In this document: piece after piece, positions 8,334 through 44,269 of the stretch
Layout: the number at the start of each line of letters is the position of its first letter
Position numbering within the stretch: the stretch's first letter is position 1
From: Paracoccaceae bacterium
GTDB taxonomy: Bacteria; Pseudomonadota; Alphaproteobacteria; Rhodobacterales; Rhodobacteraceae
Length of the DNA: 44,269 bases
Direction of reading: 5' to 3'
Assembly: GCA_029248915.1 (NCBI GenBank)
Contig: JAQWIK010000050.1
Location: 1-44,269 of the forward strand
The notes under the pieces: generated by a model
Told to the model about the DNA's origin: nothing
Seen by the model: only the letters and a program-made list of their open reading frames with translations
Database searches by the model: none
Made by a program: the position numbers and the translations under genes

Positions 8334-8945
8334 TTAATGCTCAAAAACATCAATATCATTCCAACCCTTAATGTCTAAAGCTGCGCGAAATGGTAGAAAT
8401 TTAAAACACTCGTTAGCTAAATTAGCTCTATTTTCACGTTCTAGCATTTCGTTTAGTTTTTCTCGCAATGCGTGCAAATGCAAAACGTCAGTTGCAGCGT
8501 ATTCGATTTGAGCTTTAGTTAGAGTTTTGGCACCCCAGTCACTTGATTGCTGCTGTTTTGAAATATCAATTTCTAAAAGCTCTGTAAGAAGATTTTTTAG
8601 TCCATGACGATCAGTGTAAGTTCGCGCAATTTTACTAGCTATTTTTGTACAATAAACGGGTGAAGCAAGAAGCCCAAAAGTAGAATATAAAATGGCAATA
8701 TCGAAACGTCCAAAATGAAATAACTTCAGAACATTTCTATTCTTTAGCAATCGTGTCAGGTTCTGTGCCTTCTTTTGACCTTTTTCTATTTGAACAATAT
8801 GGGTGTGCCCGTCACCGGATGAAAGCTGCACTACACAAAGTCTATCACGAACGGGGTTCAATCCCATTGATTCGCAATCAACTGCCACTATTTTGCCCAG
8901 GTCAAGGCTATCAGGTAAATCTTTACTGTAGGTGAAATTTGTCAC
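8334..8945 (-). CDS. rnd: RNase D-like 3'-5' exonuclease
   Basis: DEDDy-family exonuclease that trims RNA 3' ends. It has ExoI (VDCESMGL, D23 and E25), ExoII (HFGRFDIAIL) and ExoIII (YAATDVLHL with Tyr and Asp). At 203 residues it has only the nuclease domain and lacks the HRDC domains of E. coli RNase D (~375 residues). This short form is usual beside lptC in alphaproteobacteria. The start was moved to the GTG at 8945 because AAAAAGGA sits 6 bases before it and the product then begins MTNFTYSKDLPD. The longer frame begins with a TTG at 8972. Confidence 0.88.
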   Translation of the reverse strand: MTNFTYSKDLPDSLDLGKIVAVDCESMGLNPVRDRLCVVQLSSGDGHTHIVQIEKGQKKAQNLTRLLKNRNVLKLFHFGRFDIAILYSTFGLLASPVYCTKIASKIARTYTDRHGLKNLLTELLEIDISKQQQSSDWGAKTLTKAQIEYAATDVLHLHALREKLNEMLERENRANLANECFKFLPFRAALDIKGWNDIDVFEH

Positions 8946-9108
8946 TGGTTTTCCTTTTTCACAATCCCACAATATTCAAATAACTGTTGGCTTACGATCA
9001 AGCAACTACAGAAAATTTATATTTAATTATAGTGAAATTAAGAATAAACTCAAAATCGAACATTAAAATTAATAAGTAATATATTTACCAGAACTATTTT
9101 GAAAAGCT

Positions 9109-9924
9109 ATGATTTCTAAGAATTTGTTTTCTCTCAAAGGAAAGACGGCACTAGTTACTGGAGGATCTACAGGTATAGGCCTCATGGCAACTGCGGGTTT
9201 AGCTTCAGCAGGCGCAAAAGTTTTTATTGTTTCTCGAAAATTGGAAAATTGTCGAAACGCAGCAAAAAAATTAAATAATTATAACTTTGAAGGAGAAGTT
9301 ATACCTTTTAGTGGTGATTTGAGTAGTGAGAATGGGATTAATACCATATCTGATCAAATTTACTCTAAAAATTCAGAATTACATATATTAATTAATAACG
9401 CTGGTAGGACATGGGGTTCAAATCTTAGTAGTTTTCCTTACGATGCTTGGGCAAAAGTTCTCAACCTTAATGTATCTGCTATTTTTTATTTAACTCAGAA
9501 ACTAGTCCCCCTGTTAACAGCCTCGTCAAAGTCAGCTTTCCCATCGCGTGTTGTGAATATAGGTAGTGTTATGGGAGAAGTTCCAATGGGTGATGGTGCT
9601 TATTCATATGCAGCCTCGAAGTCTGCTGTTCACCATATCACTAGAATTTTAGCCAAAGAGCTGGCTGAAAGAAATATAACGGTGAACGCTCTGTCTCCTG
9701 GTCCATTTCAGTCCAACATGACTGATTTTGCGATAGGAGACTCAAAAGGCACAACTCGTGTTTCAAAAAGAGTTCCACTAAATCGTATAGGGCAAACTGA
9801 CGACATTGCTGCAGCTATTCAATTTTTATGTGGAAAAGGCGGGTCGTATGTCACTGGTGCTATATTACCAATATCTGGTGGGATAAATGTTTCAACTGGA
9901 CCAAGTATATTTGGTGAGGACTGA
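9109..9924 (+). CDS. Short-chain dehydrogenase/reductase (SDR)
   Basis: NAD(P)-dependent oxidoreductase of the classical SDR family, 271 residues. The Rossmann cofactor motif TGGSTGIG is at 17-24, NNAG at 96-99, the catalytic Ser153 in IGSVMG and Tyr167/Lys171 in YAASK. SRK after beta-2 suggests an NADP(H) preference. This is the first gene of a three-gene plus-strand operon with a MaoC hydratase and an APH-type kinase. That context points to hydroxyacyl-CoA or hydroxy-acid chemistry. The true substrate is unknown; gluconate 5-dehydrogenase-like SDRs are also similar in sequence. Confidence 0.88.
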   Translation: MISKNLFSLKGKTALVTGGSTGIGLMATAGLASAGAKVFIVSRKLENCRNAAKKLNNYNFEGEVIPFSGDLSSENGINTISDQIYSKNSELHILINNAGRTWGSNLSSFPYDAWAKVLNLNVSAIFYLTQKLVPLLTASSKSAFPSRVVNIGSVMGEVPMGDGAYSYAASKSAVHHITRILAKELAERNITVNALSPGPFQSNMTDFAIGDSKGTTRVSKRVPLNRIGQTDDIAAAIQFLCGKGGSYVTGAILPISGGINVSTGPSIFGED

Positions 9925-9925
9925 T

Positions 9926-10399
9926 GTGCTGAGCTTTGAAGATCTTAAAAAACAATTGGGTTTAGAAGTAGGTGTTTCGAGATGGTTTACCATTGACCAA
10001 GAAAGAATAGATAAATTTGCTGATTTAACAGAAGATTGGCAATACATACATACAGATCCAATTGCTGCTAAAAATACATCTTTTAATGGAACTATAGCAC
10101 ATGGGTTTTTAACAGTTTCACTTCTTTCTGCTATGTATTACGACGCAATCCCTGTGATAGAAGGATCTGAATTAGGAGTAAATTATGGCTTTGATAAGCT
10201 AAGGTTTTTATCACCAGTAAAAGTTGGATCAAAGGTTCGAGGGCACTTTGAGCTTGCTGATATTCGAGAAGGTAGGCCTTTTGAAATTTCGACGACATGG
10301 CGTGTTGAAGTTGAGATAGAGGGCTTTGAGAAGCCAGCTTTGGTTGCCCACTGGATTGGGAGGCAATATTTGTCAAAAGGTCTTAGTCAAGATGGCTAA
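9926..10399 (+). CDS. MaoC-family enoyl-CoA hydratase/dehydratase
   Basis: Hotdog-fold hydratase of the R-specific enoyl-CoA hydratase type (157 residues). It has the hydratase-2 motif with catalytic Asp and His in LTEDWQYIHTDPIAA, followed by NGTIAHGFLTVSLLS. The start was set at the GTG at 9926: GAGGA lies 5 bases upstream within the SDR 3' end, and the longer frame to 9887 would overlap the SDR by 38 bases. The gene begins one base after the SDR stop and overlaps the following kinase gene by 8 bases. It probably acts on a CoA ester made or used by its neighbours. Confidence 0.88.
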   Translation: MLSFEDLKKQLGLEVGVSRWFTIDQERIDKFADLTEDWQYIHTDPIAAKNTSFNGTIAHGFLTVSLLSAMYYDAIPVIEGSELGVNYGFDKLRFLSPVKVGSKVRGHFELADIREGRPFEISTTWRVEVEIEGFEKPALVAHWIGRQYLSKGLSQDG

Positions 10400-11417
10400 A
10401 AAAAAGTTAGATTTCAAAGCTGCATCAGCATGGGCTGAAACTAATATTAAAAATTTTTATAGACCCGCAAAGTATACAAAGTTTAATTCTGGTCAGTCCA
10501 ACCCAACTTATTTAATCGAAACCCCCAAGAAAAAATATGTTCTTCGAAAAAAACCAGAGGGAATTTTATTAAAGTCGGCACATGCGGTGGATAGGGAGTA
10601 TAGAGTTCAGTTAGCCTTGCAAAATAGCCAGGTTCCAGTTCCAAGAATGCTTGCTTTCTGTGCTGATGCTAGTGTTTTAGGCACAGATTTCTATATTATG
10701 GAGTACATACAGGGTATTTGTTTTGAGGATCCACGTTTAGATGTCATCGCTGAGCATCGCCGTTATTCAATCTTTGAAGAAATGAGTAATATCTTAGCGG
10801 AGATACACAAAGTTGATTTATTAAAAGTCGGTCTTTCCGACTACGGTCCAGGTGGTGACTATTTCACAAGACAAATTACTCGCTGGACGAAACAATATCG
10901 ATCTTCCGAAACAGATCAAATTAGAAGTATGAACCAACTTATCCTATGGTTGGAAGGAAATACTCCGGTCGATGATGGAAAACGATGTTTAGTTCATGGC
11001 GATTTCCGATTAGATAATTTATTTTTTGACCCCAAAAAAAATAAGTGTGTGGCGGTATTAGATTGGGAGCTTTCAACAATTGGGCATCCTTTTGCAGATC
11101 TAGCTAGCGTACTTATGCAGTGGTCAATGCCAACTGGCTTAGAGGGGCGCGGTTTGCAAAACGTAGACAGAAAAGAATTTGGTCTTATGGAAGACAAAGA
11201 ATTTATTGATTCTTACTGTAAAAGAGCGGGTTTAGAAGGTATTTATAATTTTGAATTTTATATGGCATTCGCTTTTTTCCGAATGGCAGCTATTCTTCAA
11301 GGAGTTAAGAAAAGAGGGCTTGAAGGTAATGCATCTAATCCAGAAAAAGCCATGAAACTTGGAAAATTAGTCAAATTATTTTCTGAAAAAGGGATTGCTG
11401 TTTTACAAAAGAAATAA
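10392..11417 (+). CDS. APH-family phosphotransferase (ACAD10/11 kinase-domain-like)
   Basis: Kinase-like protein of the aminoglycoside phosphotransferase (APH) fold, 341 residues. The Brenner motif LVHGDFRLDNLFFD supplies the catalytic Asp, and AVLDWELSTIGHPFADLA supplies the metal-binding Asp. An N-lobe with KYVLRKKPEG holds the ATP-binding Lys. Its sequence resembles the kinase domain of ACAD10/ACAD11 and LvaA, which phosphorylate 4-hydroxyacyl-CoA, more than true antibiotic kinases. The ATG at 10392 gives MAKKKLDFKAASAW and overlaps the maoC stop; the frame to 10326 would overlap far more. A function with hydroxyacyl-CoA is inferred, not shown. Confidence 0.85.
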   Translation: MAKKKLDFKAASAWAETNIKNFYRPAKYTKFNSGQSNPTYLIETPKKKYVLRKKPEGILLKSAHAVDREYRVQLALQNSQVPVPRMLAFCADASVLGTDFYIMEYIQGICFEDPRLDVIAEHRRYSIFEEMSNILAEIHKVDLLKVGLSDYGPGGDYFTRQITRWTKQYRSSETDQIRSMNQLILWLEGNTPVDDGKRCLVHGDFRLDNLFFDPKKNKCVAVLDWELSTIGHPFADLASVLMQWSMPTGLEGRGLQNVDRKEFGLMEDKEFIDSYCKRAGLEGIYNFEFYMAFAFFRMAAILQGVKKRGLEGNASNPEKAMKLGKLVKLFSEKGIAVLQKK

Positions 11418-11428
11418 TGGCATTTGGG

Positions 11429-12493
11429 TTAGTCTATCCAACCATTTAAATTTTTATCAATCAAAGAAGAAAGCGCATCGATGTGAGCAGTGCTGTCATT
11501 TAGACAGGGTATATATGTAAATTCTTCTCCCCCAGCTTCCTCAAAACTTTCTTTGATTTCTTCATTTATTTCTTCCAAAGTCTCAATACAGTCAGAAGAA
11601 AAAGCTGGCGCCATAACGGCTATAGACTTTTTCTTTTCTTCTTTAACAAGTCTTGCAACTTCTTCAACTGTGTAAGGTTTCAACCATTCCGCTGGTCCAA
11701 ATTTAGATTGAAAGGTGGTAATAATATCTGTTTCTTCCCATCCCAGACGTTCCTTTAATAACCTAGTAGTTTTCTGGCACTGGCAATGATACGGGTCACC
11801 TTGCATTAGGTATCTTTTTGGCATGCCATGATAGCTACAAACAAGAATTTCTGGTCTAGTTTTTTTTGCAGCATAAGCTTCTTCTACAGACTGTGCTAAG
11901 GCTTCAATATACTGAGGTTGTTCAAAATAAGGCTCTACAACGCGAACAACTGGTTGCCATCTCTCCTGCATTAACGCTTTAAAAAATTGGTCATTTGCTG
12001 ATGCTGATGTAGCTCCAGCATAATGAGGATAAAGAGGGAAAAATAAAATTTTTGTACACCCCTCTTGAACCATTTCTCTTACTTTGGATTGTGTTGAAGG
12101 ATTCCCGTAACGCATACAAAAATCAACTTTGATTTTCTCCCCATATTTCTTTTCCATTATTTTTTTTATTTTCAAGGTCTGATTTCTTGTTATAGTCAAC
12201 AACGGACTTTCATTTTCCTCGGTGTTCCAAATAGATTTATAGGCTGCGCCAGATCTAGAGGGGCGAATTGATAATATTACCAATTGCAACAATGGTTGCC
12301 ATAACCACGGGGAATAATCGATAACACGTCTGTCTGACAAAAACTCTGATAAATATCGTCTCATCGACCAATAGTCATAGTGATCGGGAGTACCCAAATT
12401 AGCTAGAAGAATACCTATTCGCTTTTTTGGAATTTTTGGATGGTCCCTTGTTGCATGTTTGGGGATTGTTAATGATGCTGTTTCATCAAACAT
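11429..12493 (-). CDS. hemH: Ferrochelatase
   Basis: Inserts Fe2+ into protoporphyrin IX to make protoheme, the last step of heme synthesis. The 354 residues include LLANLGTPDHYDYWSMRRYL near the N-terminus, FFPLYPHYAGATSAS, the catalytic His in VCSYHGMPKRYLMQGDPY and the C-terminal APAFSSDCIETLEEI motif. CQCQ after DPYH recalls the Cys-rich region of other bacterial ferrochelatases; a cluster binding role is not certain. It is the second gene after an NDUFAF5-like methyltransferase, 58 bases apart, and is convergent with the APH kinase gene over 11 bases. Confidence 0.97.
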   Translation of the reverse strand: MFDETASLTIPKHATRDHPKIPKKRIGILLANLGTPDHYDYWSMRRYLSEFLSDRRVIDYSPWLWQPLLQLVILSIRPSRSGAAYKSIWNTEENESPLLTITRNQTLKIKKIMEKKYGEKIKVDFCMRYGNPSTQSKVREMVQEGCTKILFFPLYPHYAGATSASANDQFFKALMQERWQPVVRVVEPYFEQPQYIEALAQSVEEAYAAKKTRPEILVCSYHGMPKRYLMQGDPYHCQCQKTTRLLKERLGWEETDIITTFQSKFGPAEWLKPYTVEEVARLVKEEKKKSIAVMAPAFSSDCIETLEEINEEIKESFEEAGGEEFTYIPCLNDSTAHIDALSSLIDKNLNGWID

Positions 12494-12551: not shown

Positions 12552-13370
12552 TCAATCTTTCAGTTTTTCTTCTTTTACTTTTAGTGCATCAGCAAGTCTT
12601 GTTGTTGCTGAGCCACGTTTCAAGGGCTTTGGTGTGTCTTGTGATGGTATCCAGCCAGTTATGGTAATAAACTCAAAAGTTGCTTTTACACTATTGTTCT
12701 GTGAATTCTGGTTTTTGATATATTTATCAGATGCTAAAGAAAAGAGTCTCCGATGTGAAAATTTTTTTGACCGATGTATTTGGACATTTGTTTCACCCAT
12801 TTTGCGAAGGTCATATAGAAGATCTAAAGGTTTCTTATAATTGATTTCATTAATCATAATGTCTGCGACAGGTAATACAAAACCTGCACGCATTAGAAAA
12901 GAACCAGCATCACGAATATCTATCATTGGGAGGATTCTAGGTGAAATACCGCCAGTTAACTCAATTTCTGCTGAAACAATAGATTCTCTAAGTTCATTCA
13001 GTGTTTGACCACCTAAGAAAATACCAAGAAGTAAGCCACCTTTTTCCATAGCTGATCTGCACTGGATTAATTGACCAATAGGATCATTAGAATGGTGCAA
13101 TGACATACCGTGGATTACTAAATCATAGCCCTTTTGTGGAAACTTTAATATTTCATCATCATCAATAAAATCAGCACCATGGAAAGCTTCCTGCCAATAA
13201 TAAGGATTACCACAAACGATTAAAATTTTTTCAAATTTCTTTTTAAAGAATTTTAACCTATCCTTTATCTCCTGGACAGCTACTTTTTGGAGGAAATTAT
13301 CTTCTTTATCTGATCTCACCCTTCTTTTTTCTAAGGCTGATCTATCAATAATTTCTTCACTATTTTTCAT
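12552..13370 (-). CDS. SAM-dependent methyltransferase-fold protein, NDUFAF5-like
   Basis: 272 residues with a degenerate class I methyltransferase fold. The N-terminal IDRSALEKRRVRSDK and the YDLVIHGMSLHHSNDP segment resemble NDUFAF5/BioC-like proteins. In mitochondria NDUFAF5 hydroxylates an arginine of complex I subunit NDUFS7, and alphaproteobacterial homologues of this length are common. The usual glycine-rich SAM loop is replaced by ILIVCGNPYYW, so real methyl transfer is doubtful. It is followed by hemH and divergent from grxC, which matches alphaproteobacterial gene order as I know it. The function in bacteria is not established. Confidence 0.7.
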   Translation of the reverse strand: MKNSEEIIDRSALEKRRVRSDKEDNFLQKVAVQEIKDRLKFFKKKFEKILIVCGNPYYWQEAFHGADFIDDDEILKFPQKGYDLVIHGMSLHHSNDPIGQLIQCRSAMEKGGLLLGIFLGGQTLNELRESIVSAEIELTGGISPRILPMIDIRDAGSFLMRAGFVLPVADIMINEINYKKPLDLLYDLRKMGETNVQIHRSKKFSHRRLFSLASDKYIKNQNSQNNSVKATFEFITITGWIPSQDTPKPLKRGSATTRLADALKVKEEKLKD

Positions 13371-44004: not shown

Positions 44005-44269
44005 CAACTTGAGAGTTTGATCCTGGCTCAGAACGAACGCTGGCGGCAGGCCTAACACATGCAAGTCGAGCGCGCCTTCGGGCGAGCGGCGGACGGGTTA
44101 GTAACGCGTGGGAACGTGCCCAGATCTACGGAATAGCCACTGGAAACGGTGAGTAATACCGTATACGCCCTTTGGGGGAAAGATTTATCGGAGAAGGATC
44201 GGCCCGCGTTAGATTAGATAGTTGGTGGGGTAACGGCCTACCAAGTCTACGATCTATAGCTGGTTTTAG
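44005..44269 (+). rRNA. 16S ribosomal RNA, 3'-partial
   Basis: The first ~265 bases of small-subunit rRNA, beginning CAACTTGAGAGTTTGATCC and continuing with the GAACGAACGCTGGCGGCAGG and GCCTTCGGGCGAGCGGCGGA stretches. The short V1 loop (CGCCTTCGGGCG) and pattern are as in Rhodobacteraceae. It runs off the right edge. The 5' end is set by similarity to related 16S genes and may be off by a few bases. Confidence 0.97.

Follow-up and report, generated by a model that had tools for sequence, protein, structure and literature searches.

The breakdown of 4-hydroxy acids is known in bacteria from the enzymes that serve growth on levulinate in Pseudomonas, and to our knowledge the corresponding enzymes of animals were unknown until recently. 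The locus described here is an operon of a short-chain dehydrogenase/reductase (SDR), a MaoC hydratase and an APH-fold kinase on contig JAQWIK010000050.1 (C50 below) of the Paracoccaceae bacterium assembly GCA_029248915.1, which was analysed over a stretch of 44,269 nucleotides (the window). We consider it likely that this trio is one half of a two-locus route which brings 4-hydroxy acids into beta-oxidation, the other half being an AMP-forming ligase and an acyl-CoA dehydrogenase (ACAD) on contig C102 of the same genome.

Conversion of 4-hydroxy acids to 2-enoyl-CoA has been established for mammalian ACAD10/ACAD11 and for LvaA/LvaC of the Pseudomonas lva operon (LvaABCDE), according to PMC12440821, PMC11342911 and PMC6692424. 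Burkholderia pseudomallei orthologues could also replace the ACAD10 domains in vitro (PMC11342911). The window kinase is homologous to that of ACAD11 over its whole length. In contrast to ACAD10/ACAD11, however, kinase and ACAD are encoded separately, each on a contig of its own, the HAD domain is absent, and a MaoC protein and an SDR accompany the kinase. Like the lva system, the genome encodes all four of kinase, ACAD, ligase and SDR, but they do not form one operon, a MaoC protein is present, the SDR is nearest to RhlG, and the likeness of the kinase was measured against ACAD11. In P. citronellolis the LvaA homologue adjoins a histidine phosphatase, which has been suggested to take the phosphate off the intermediate (PMC6692424), and a histidine phosphatase likewise stands near the kinase in 40 of 57 family relatives. 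Peroxisomal MFE-2 (HSD17B4) offers a further parallel, with a hydratase-2-type MaoC and an SDR downstream of the ACAD11 step; relatives of the window organism carry a true MFE-2-type SDR beside MaoC. Unlike MFE-2, the window has hydratase and SDR as separate genes, and its SDR is RhlG-like, not MFE-2-like. The window system is thus probably a pared-down, two-locus version of the ACAD10/11-Lva route for 4-hydroxyacyl-CoA, probably proceeding via (R)-hydration. Searches of the open-licence literature showed no account of an SDR-MaoC-kinase arrangement or of such a Rhodobacteraceae cluster; this does not prove absence, since the bulk of the subscription literature, the 2017 Lva paper among it, lies outside that coverage.

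In phmmer searches the kinase matched mouse ACAD11 at E 6.3e-79 (residues 5-336) and the solved structure 3dxp at E 1.4e-85, while the nearest true aminoglycoside kinase reached only E 5.9e-4. By these sequence matches the kinase is a member of the ACAD10/ACAD11 kinase family, as a preliminary description made from the letters of the window had proposed, and the clustering with unrelated APH groups that would have spoken against this did not occur. A drug-resistance APH identity was rejected, no NCBIfam resistance model being matched at its cut-off (APH_3p, 37.5 bits against 205). The catalytic residues D220 and N225 of ACAD11 are kept as D204 and N209, and the metal residue is D224. Both CoA-contact arginines are also kept, R176 of ACAD11 as R160 and the arginine beside the alphaC glutamate as R68 (R68-E69); the latter is R86 in the paper and index 83 in the PDB chain, and was matched by description. 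These catalytic and CoA-contact residues occur in all aligned kinases that cover them (up to 96), the arginines discriminating little, so that their presence confirms a functional family member but singles out no one substrate. A structure predicted with AlphaFold, which served as no more than a rough check of the fold, had 3dxp as its best solved match (TMq 0.82) and the 25-hydroxysteroid kinase as its second. A first tree, with the two other APH proteins of the genome as outgroup, had an end branch of about 10 and its rooting failed. In the rebuilt tree the window kinase fell in its own genus clade (support 100) among Rhodobacteraceae kinases; this tree carries SH-aLRT support only, from a quick search with long-branch warnings, so its deep order is not reliable, and it omits 24 of the 96 kinase rows, left out to save time or as too distant or partial.

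The ligase and the ACAD had been described as missing, and the trio as possibly a short, undescribed route. The first of these claims fails at the level of the genome. A search of the organism's own assembly (2.02 Mb, 90% complete) returned nine ACAD matches, among them an ACAD10/11-LvaC-type enzyme on C102 that matched ACAD11 at E 2.7e-114 and 4hr3 at E 2e-128, against only 1.3e-37 for the next distinct group, MCAD. It is identical to ACAD11 at all six residues checked (H597, R626, R631, H634, R637 and the catalytic D753), whose roles in the active site, including phosphate binding by R626, H634 and R637, are taken from PMC12440821. Its neighbour is an AMP-forming ligase whose best NCBIfam match, 3-(methylthio)propionyl-CoA ligase, scored 725 bits, under the cut-off of 822. 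A novel short route lacking ACAD and ligase was accordingly rejected; with both genes present elsewhere in the genome, and both halves carried by 7 of the 16 genomes of the genus, nothing requires the route to be short. The partners had seemed absent because the rest of the genome is not visible from one contig. The chemistry and both the kinase and ACAD families are already known; what would be new is a system that is split over two loci and trimmed.

Kinase and ACAD are found together well beyond this genome. Among the 16 genus genomes searched, 7 have both, one the kinase only, one the ACAD only and 7 neither, and the ligase and the ACAD occupy an identical set of 8 genomes, 7 of which carry the kinase. 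At the level of the family, 296 genomes of nearly all different genera were scored with the kinase at E <= 1e-80 and the ACAD at E <= 1e-100. Both genes were present in 148 and neither in 138, leaving 6 with the kinase only and 4 with the ACAD only; at other E thresholds the association was weaker and still strong.

The trio itself is a real operon, and its arrangement is not due to chance. The described packing on the + strand, a one-base gap (position 9925) between SDR and MaoC and an 8-base overlap between MaoC and kinase, was borne out. The kinase was found in 8 of the 16 genus genomes and was preceded by SDR and MaoC in all 8, including G012, where a contig end leaves 31 kinase residues. 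Gene spacing was identical in loci L004-L007 and L032. Against L004-L007, dN/dS was 0.08-0.10 for the SDR, 0.16-0.25 for MaoC and 0.11-0.15 for the kinase, indicating purifying selection on all three genes. Among named relatives the closest are marine Rhodobacteraceae, for example MED-G52 (kinase identity 97%). Synonymous divergence from the nearest relative, L004, was 0.56 in the SDR and 0.26 in MaoC but no more than 0.11 in the kinase, so that a recombination tract may cover the 3' end of the operon.

A survey of conserved neighbours, suggested in the preliminary description, extended this picture to other families through 20 hand-picked loci. In the alphaproteobacterial family f10, the exact SDR-MaoC-kinase order together with a divergent ACAD (64% identity to the own-genome enzyme) was present in the three loci examined, drawn from 8 genomes with a match. 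In actinobacteria of the Actinomarina group, MaoC follows the kinase in 17/17 loci, and in 5/5 loci examined a divergent ACAD lies just upstream of the kinase and a thiolase after MaoC. The link between kinase, MaoC and ACAD11-type ACAD thus spans phyla, and we regard this as the best reason to think that the window trio acts together with the genes on C102.

Within the family, neighbours were counted on the kinase strand within 7.5 kb in 57 loci. These hold the top-ranked kinases from other genera of the family, a single one for each genome, taken in rank order from 185 such genomes with any match; several loci end at contig edges and the counts are lower bounds. A histidine phosphatase was found at 40 loci, a window-type SDR at 29, a PaaI-type thioesterase at 29, an MFE-2-type SDR (SDR2) at 28, an NMO flavoprotein at 27, MaoC at 26, a thiolase at 23, one or both subunits of a PimC/PimD-type ACAD at 20, an IclR regulator at 19, a ligase at 17, an ACAD11-type ACAD at 15 and a CurA-type reductase at 12. 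At 15 of the 57 loci the ACAD lies within 2 kb of the kinase, with MaoC present too at 12 of these, and at 8 loci ligase, MaoC, ACAD11-type ACAD and kinase share one strand. The fullest arrangement, in G300 (L168), is one tight run of ligase, alpha/beta hydrolase, SDR, MaoC, MFE-2-type SDR, NMO, ACAD, histidine phosphatase, kinase, third SDR and thioesterase. In the sister genus, G268 (L075) holds SDR, MaoC, MFE-2-type SDR, histidine phosphatase, kinase, thioesterase and CurA-type reductase in the same slot between RNase D and ferrochelatase that the window trio occupies, and the window genus has therefore probably lost genes there. Neither the histidine phosphatase (best full-length match 35%) nor the MFE-2-type SDR (at most 41%) of these longer operons has a close match in the genus; the best histidine phosphatase match in the own genome, at 33% identity, was taken to be a different member. 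The CurA-type reductase has 62-63% matches in 4 of the 16 genus genomes, all kinase-bearing, and none in the own assembly.

Some features of the relatives' loci may be recorded here. The NMO-family flavoprotein (PF03060) occurs at L076, L077, L079 and L168 among others, and no NCBIfam model names the one tested. The CurA/PTGR-type reductase lies at most 1.7 kb from the kinase at its 12 loci, which include L075 (9400-10443), L077, L079, L169 and L171; that of L075 passes its NCBIfam cut-off (447.7 against 440), and such a neighbour hints at alkenal or 4-hydroxyalkenal substrates. At L156 a PimC/PimD-type ACAD occurs together with the ACAD11 type. Sulfitobacter pontiacus (L228) carries its kinase operon on a plasmid; there the kinase is preceded by a thiolase and a histidine phosphatase, and an IclR regulator and a branched-chain ABC transporter follow.

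The two remaining proteins of the trio were assigned to broader families. The best solved structure for the SDR was RhlG (2b4q, E 1.1e-63). It has the glycine motif TGGSTGIG at position 17 and YxxxK at 167-171. It fell below every NCBIfam cut-off among the 25 matches listed (gluconate 5-dehydrogenase, FabG and others), the best being PRK08213 with 219.4 bits against 279. The MaoC protein was closest to Rv0130 (2c2i, E 5.7e-29) among solved structures and has D37-x4-H42, presumably the dyad of MaoC (R)-specific enoyl-CoA hydratases; on its domain and this dyad it fits that family.

From the observed gene families, residues, co-occurrence and synteny we infer the following reactions, with their stereochemistry and substrates. 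The C102 ligase would convert a 4-hydroxy acid to 4-hydroxyacyl-CoA, and the window kinase, with ATP, would phosphorylate the 4-hydroxyl to give 4-phosphoacyl-CoA. The C102 ACAD would then eliminate the phosphate to yield 2-enoyl-CoA, with no net oxidation, and the window MaoC would hydrate this to (R)-3-hydroxyacyl-CoA ahead of thiolysis. There is perhaps an even chance that the SDR acts at C4, either reducing a 4-ketone to the 4-hydroxyl or correcting its configuration for the kinase; a lesser though substantial chance falls to oxidation of the (R)-3-hydroxyl. We lean to C4, with C3 as the main rival, because LvaD reduces a 4-ketone (PMC6692424), because the ACAD10 kinase has an about fourfold preference for the (R)-4-hydroxyl (PMC11342911), and because SDR2 stands alongside in 24 of the 29 family loci that bear the window-type SDR.

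Several observations weigh against the two-locus reading. Kinase and ACAD are unlinked in the organism's own genome, and for that reason their partnership is one that we infer. In the genus, the kinase of G007 (75% complete) is found without the ACAD, and the ACAD of G008 (69% complete) without the kinase. The Fisher value of 5e-71 for the family-wide association comes from a test that ignores shared ancestry. The kinase structure model is modest (mean pLDDT 65, from 14 sequences), and ACAD11 is not among the best 50 fold matches listed for it. Two of the 57 family loci have none of the partners counted above, and 20 have the two-subunit PimC/PimD-type ACAD instead (L078, L079, L134, L138, L139, L145, L228 and others), so that the kinase does not have to serve a local ACAD11-type enzyme in every relative. 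Finally, three proteins of the longer operons, namely the histidine phosphatase, the second SDR and the CurA-type reductase, have no close match in the own genome.

The closest alternative leaves kinase and ACAD in the roles given above and makes the SDR an (R)-3-hydroxyacyl-CoA dehydrogenase following MaoC, so that the trio would combine a kinase with a counterpart, in separate genes, of the hydratase 2 and SDR of peroxisomal MFE-2. This is quite possible, if not what we favour. The nearest solved structure, RhlG, was deposited as a 3-oxoacyl reductase, the SDR directly adjoins MaoC both in the window and in the three f10 loci examined, and with no close match to SDR2 in the genus the window SDR could cover the (R)-3-hydroxyl step. 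SDR2, however, which among solved structures is best matched by (3R)-hydroxyacyl-CoA dehydrogenase and human HSD17B4, so often accompanies the window-type SDR that the latter is not simply its substitute, and at L142 and L163 the window-type SDR adjoins the kinase where MaoC and SDR2 are both absent.

Other explanations would alter the substrate or dissolve the trio altogether. It is improbable that the kinase acts on the hydroxyl of a cyclic or branched terpenoid or steroid acid, the operon then belonging to a terpenoid or steroid side-chain pathway. The 25-hydroxysteroid kinase (9fsg) does share the APH fold and phosphorylates a lipid hydroxyl, and the PimC/PimD-type ACAD at 20 loci and the branched-chain ABC transporter after the Sulfitobacter plasmid copy are in keeping with such a pathway; but 9fsg matches the window kinase just at E 8.4e-11 (phmmer) with about 20% identity, the kinase resembles ACAD11 far more closely, the residues that bind phosphate in the ACAD11 pocket are retained in the own-genome ACAD, and no PimC/PimD pair adjoins the kinase in the window. 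That the three genes are functionally unrelated, MaoC and SDR serving lipid metabolism of a general or storage kind and the kinase being a stray APH or an enzyme that acts on antibiotics, we regard as very improbable. Although both SDR and MaoC families are very large, and only 13 of the 57 family loci have both with the kinase, the identical order and overlaps across the genus, the purifying selection, the exact trio in f10, the kinase-MaoC pairing throughout the Actinomarina-group loci and a kinase under every NCBIfam resistance cut-off all speak against it.

The features of the two loci are collected in the table below. The promoter of the operon presumably lies in the intergenic region before the SDR gene, although a promoter scan gave 9 sites against 8.5 expected by chance, none above chance in that region, and a terminator scan of the operon was likewise not above chance. 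Beside the ferrochelatase gene, at 12552-13370 on the - strand, lies a genus-conserved gene for a 272-aa protein with no Pfam match, which looks like a methyltransferase-type protein. Positions 44005-44269, at the window end, are the first 265 bases of a 16S rRNA gene, and the contig therefore probably broke at the rRNA operon.

Table. Features of the kinase locus (C50, window positions) and of the partner genes on C102.
Feature	Position	Strand	Basis and remarks
RNase D-type 3'-5' exonuclease, divergent flank	8334-8972	-	Pfam; same neighbour in G268, G303 and two more family loci
Intergenic region, 136 bases, RNase D-type gene to SDR start	8973-9108	none	Open reading frame coordinates
SDR oxidoreductase, 271 aa, RhlG-like	9109-9924	+	ATG 9109, TGA ends 9924; adh_short 3.7e-46 (Pfam)
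MaoC hydratase, 157 aa, Rv0130-like	9926-10399	+	GTG 9926, TAA ends 10399; MaoC_dehydratas PF01575 3e-25 (Pfam)
MaoC stop/kinase start overlap, 8 bases	10392-10399	+	Open reading frame coordinates
ACAD10/11-type hydroxyacyl-CoA kinase (predicted), 341 aa, APH fold	10392-11417	+	ATG 10392, TAA ends 11417; APH 1.2e-48 (Pfam)
Ferrochelatase (HemH), convergent flank, 11 bases past kinase stop	11429-12493	-	Pfam; neighbour in G268 too
AMP-forming ligase	C102, gene end 12 bases upstream of ACAD ATG		Gene coordinates
ACAD10/11-LvaC-type ACAD	C102:72570-73814		E 2.7e-114 to ACAD11

A wider reading, which we offer tentatively and think unlikely as a whole, is that the trio and the C102 pair are what streamlining has left of a cluster that extends across the Rhodobacteraceae and deals with 4-hydroxy lipids, products of lipid peroxidation among them, in which the RhlG-type SDR would set the C4 configuration for an (R)-selective kinase. 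Relatives would add to it the CurA/PTGR-type alkenal reductase, the histidine phosphatase, the MFE-2-type dehydrogenase, the thiolase and the NMO-type flavoprotein, and the histidine phosphatase could serve in clearing or proofreading the phospho-intermediate. If true, this would be a bacterial counterpart of the mammalian route from 4-hydroxynonenal to beta-oxidation, with a dedicated correction system.

The window shows how an unlinked pathway, when read from one contig, may be taken for a shorter one. In about half of the sampled, marine-rich family the kinase and the ACAD occur together, in operons with a hydratase, dehydrogenases, a thiolase and a histidine phosphatase, and these co-occurring genes provide definite candidates both for the later steps and for a control of the phospho-intermediate, testable in cultured relatives such as Sulfitobacter.

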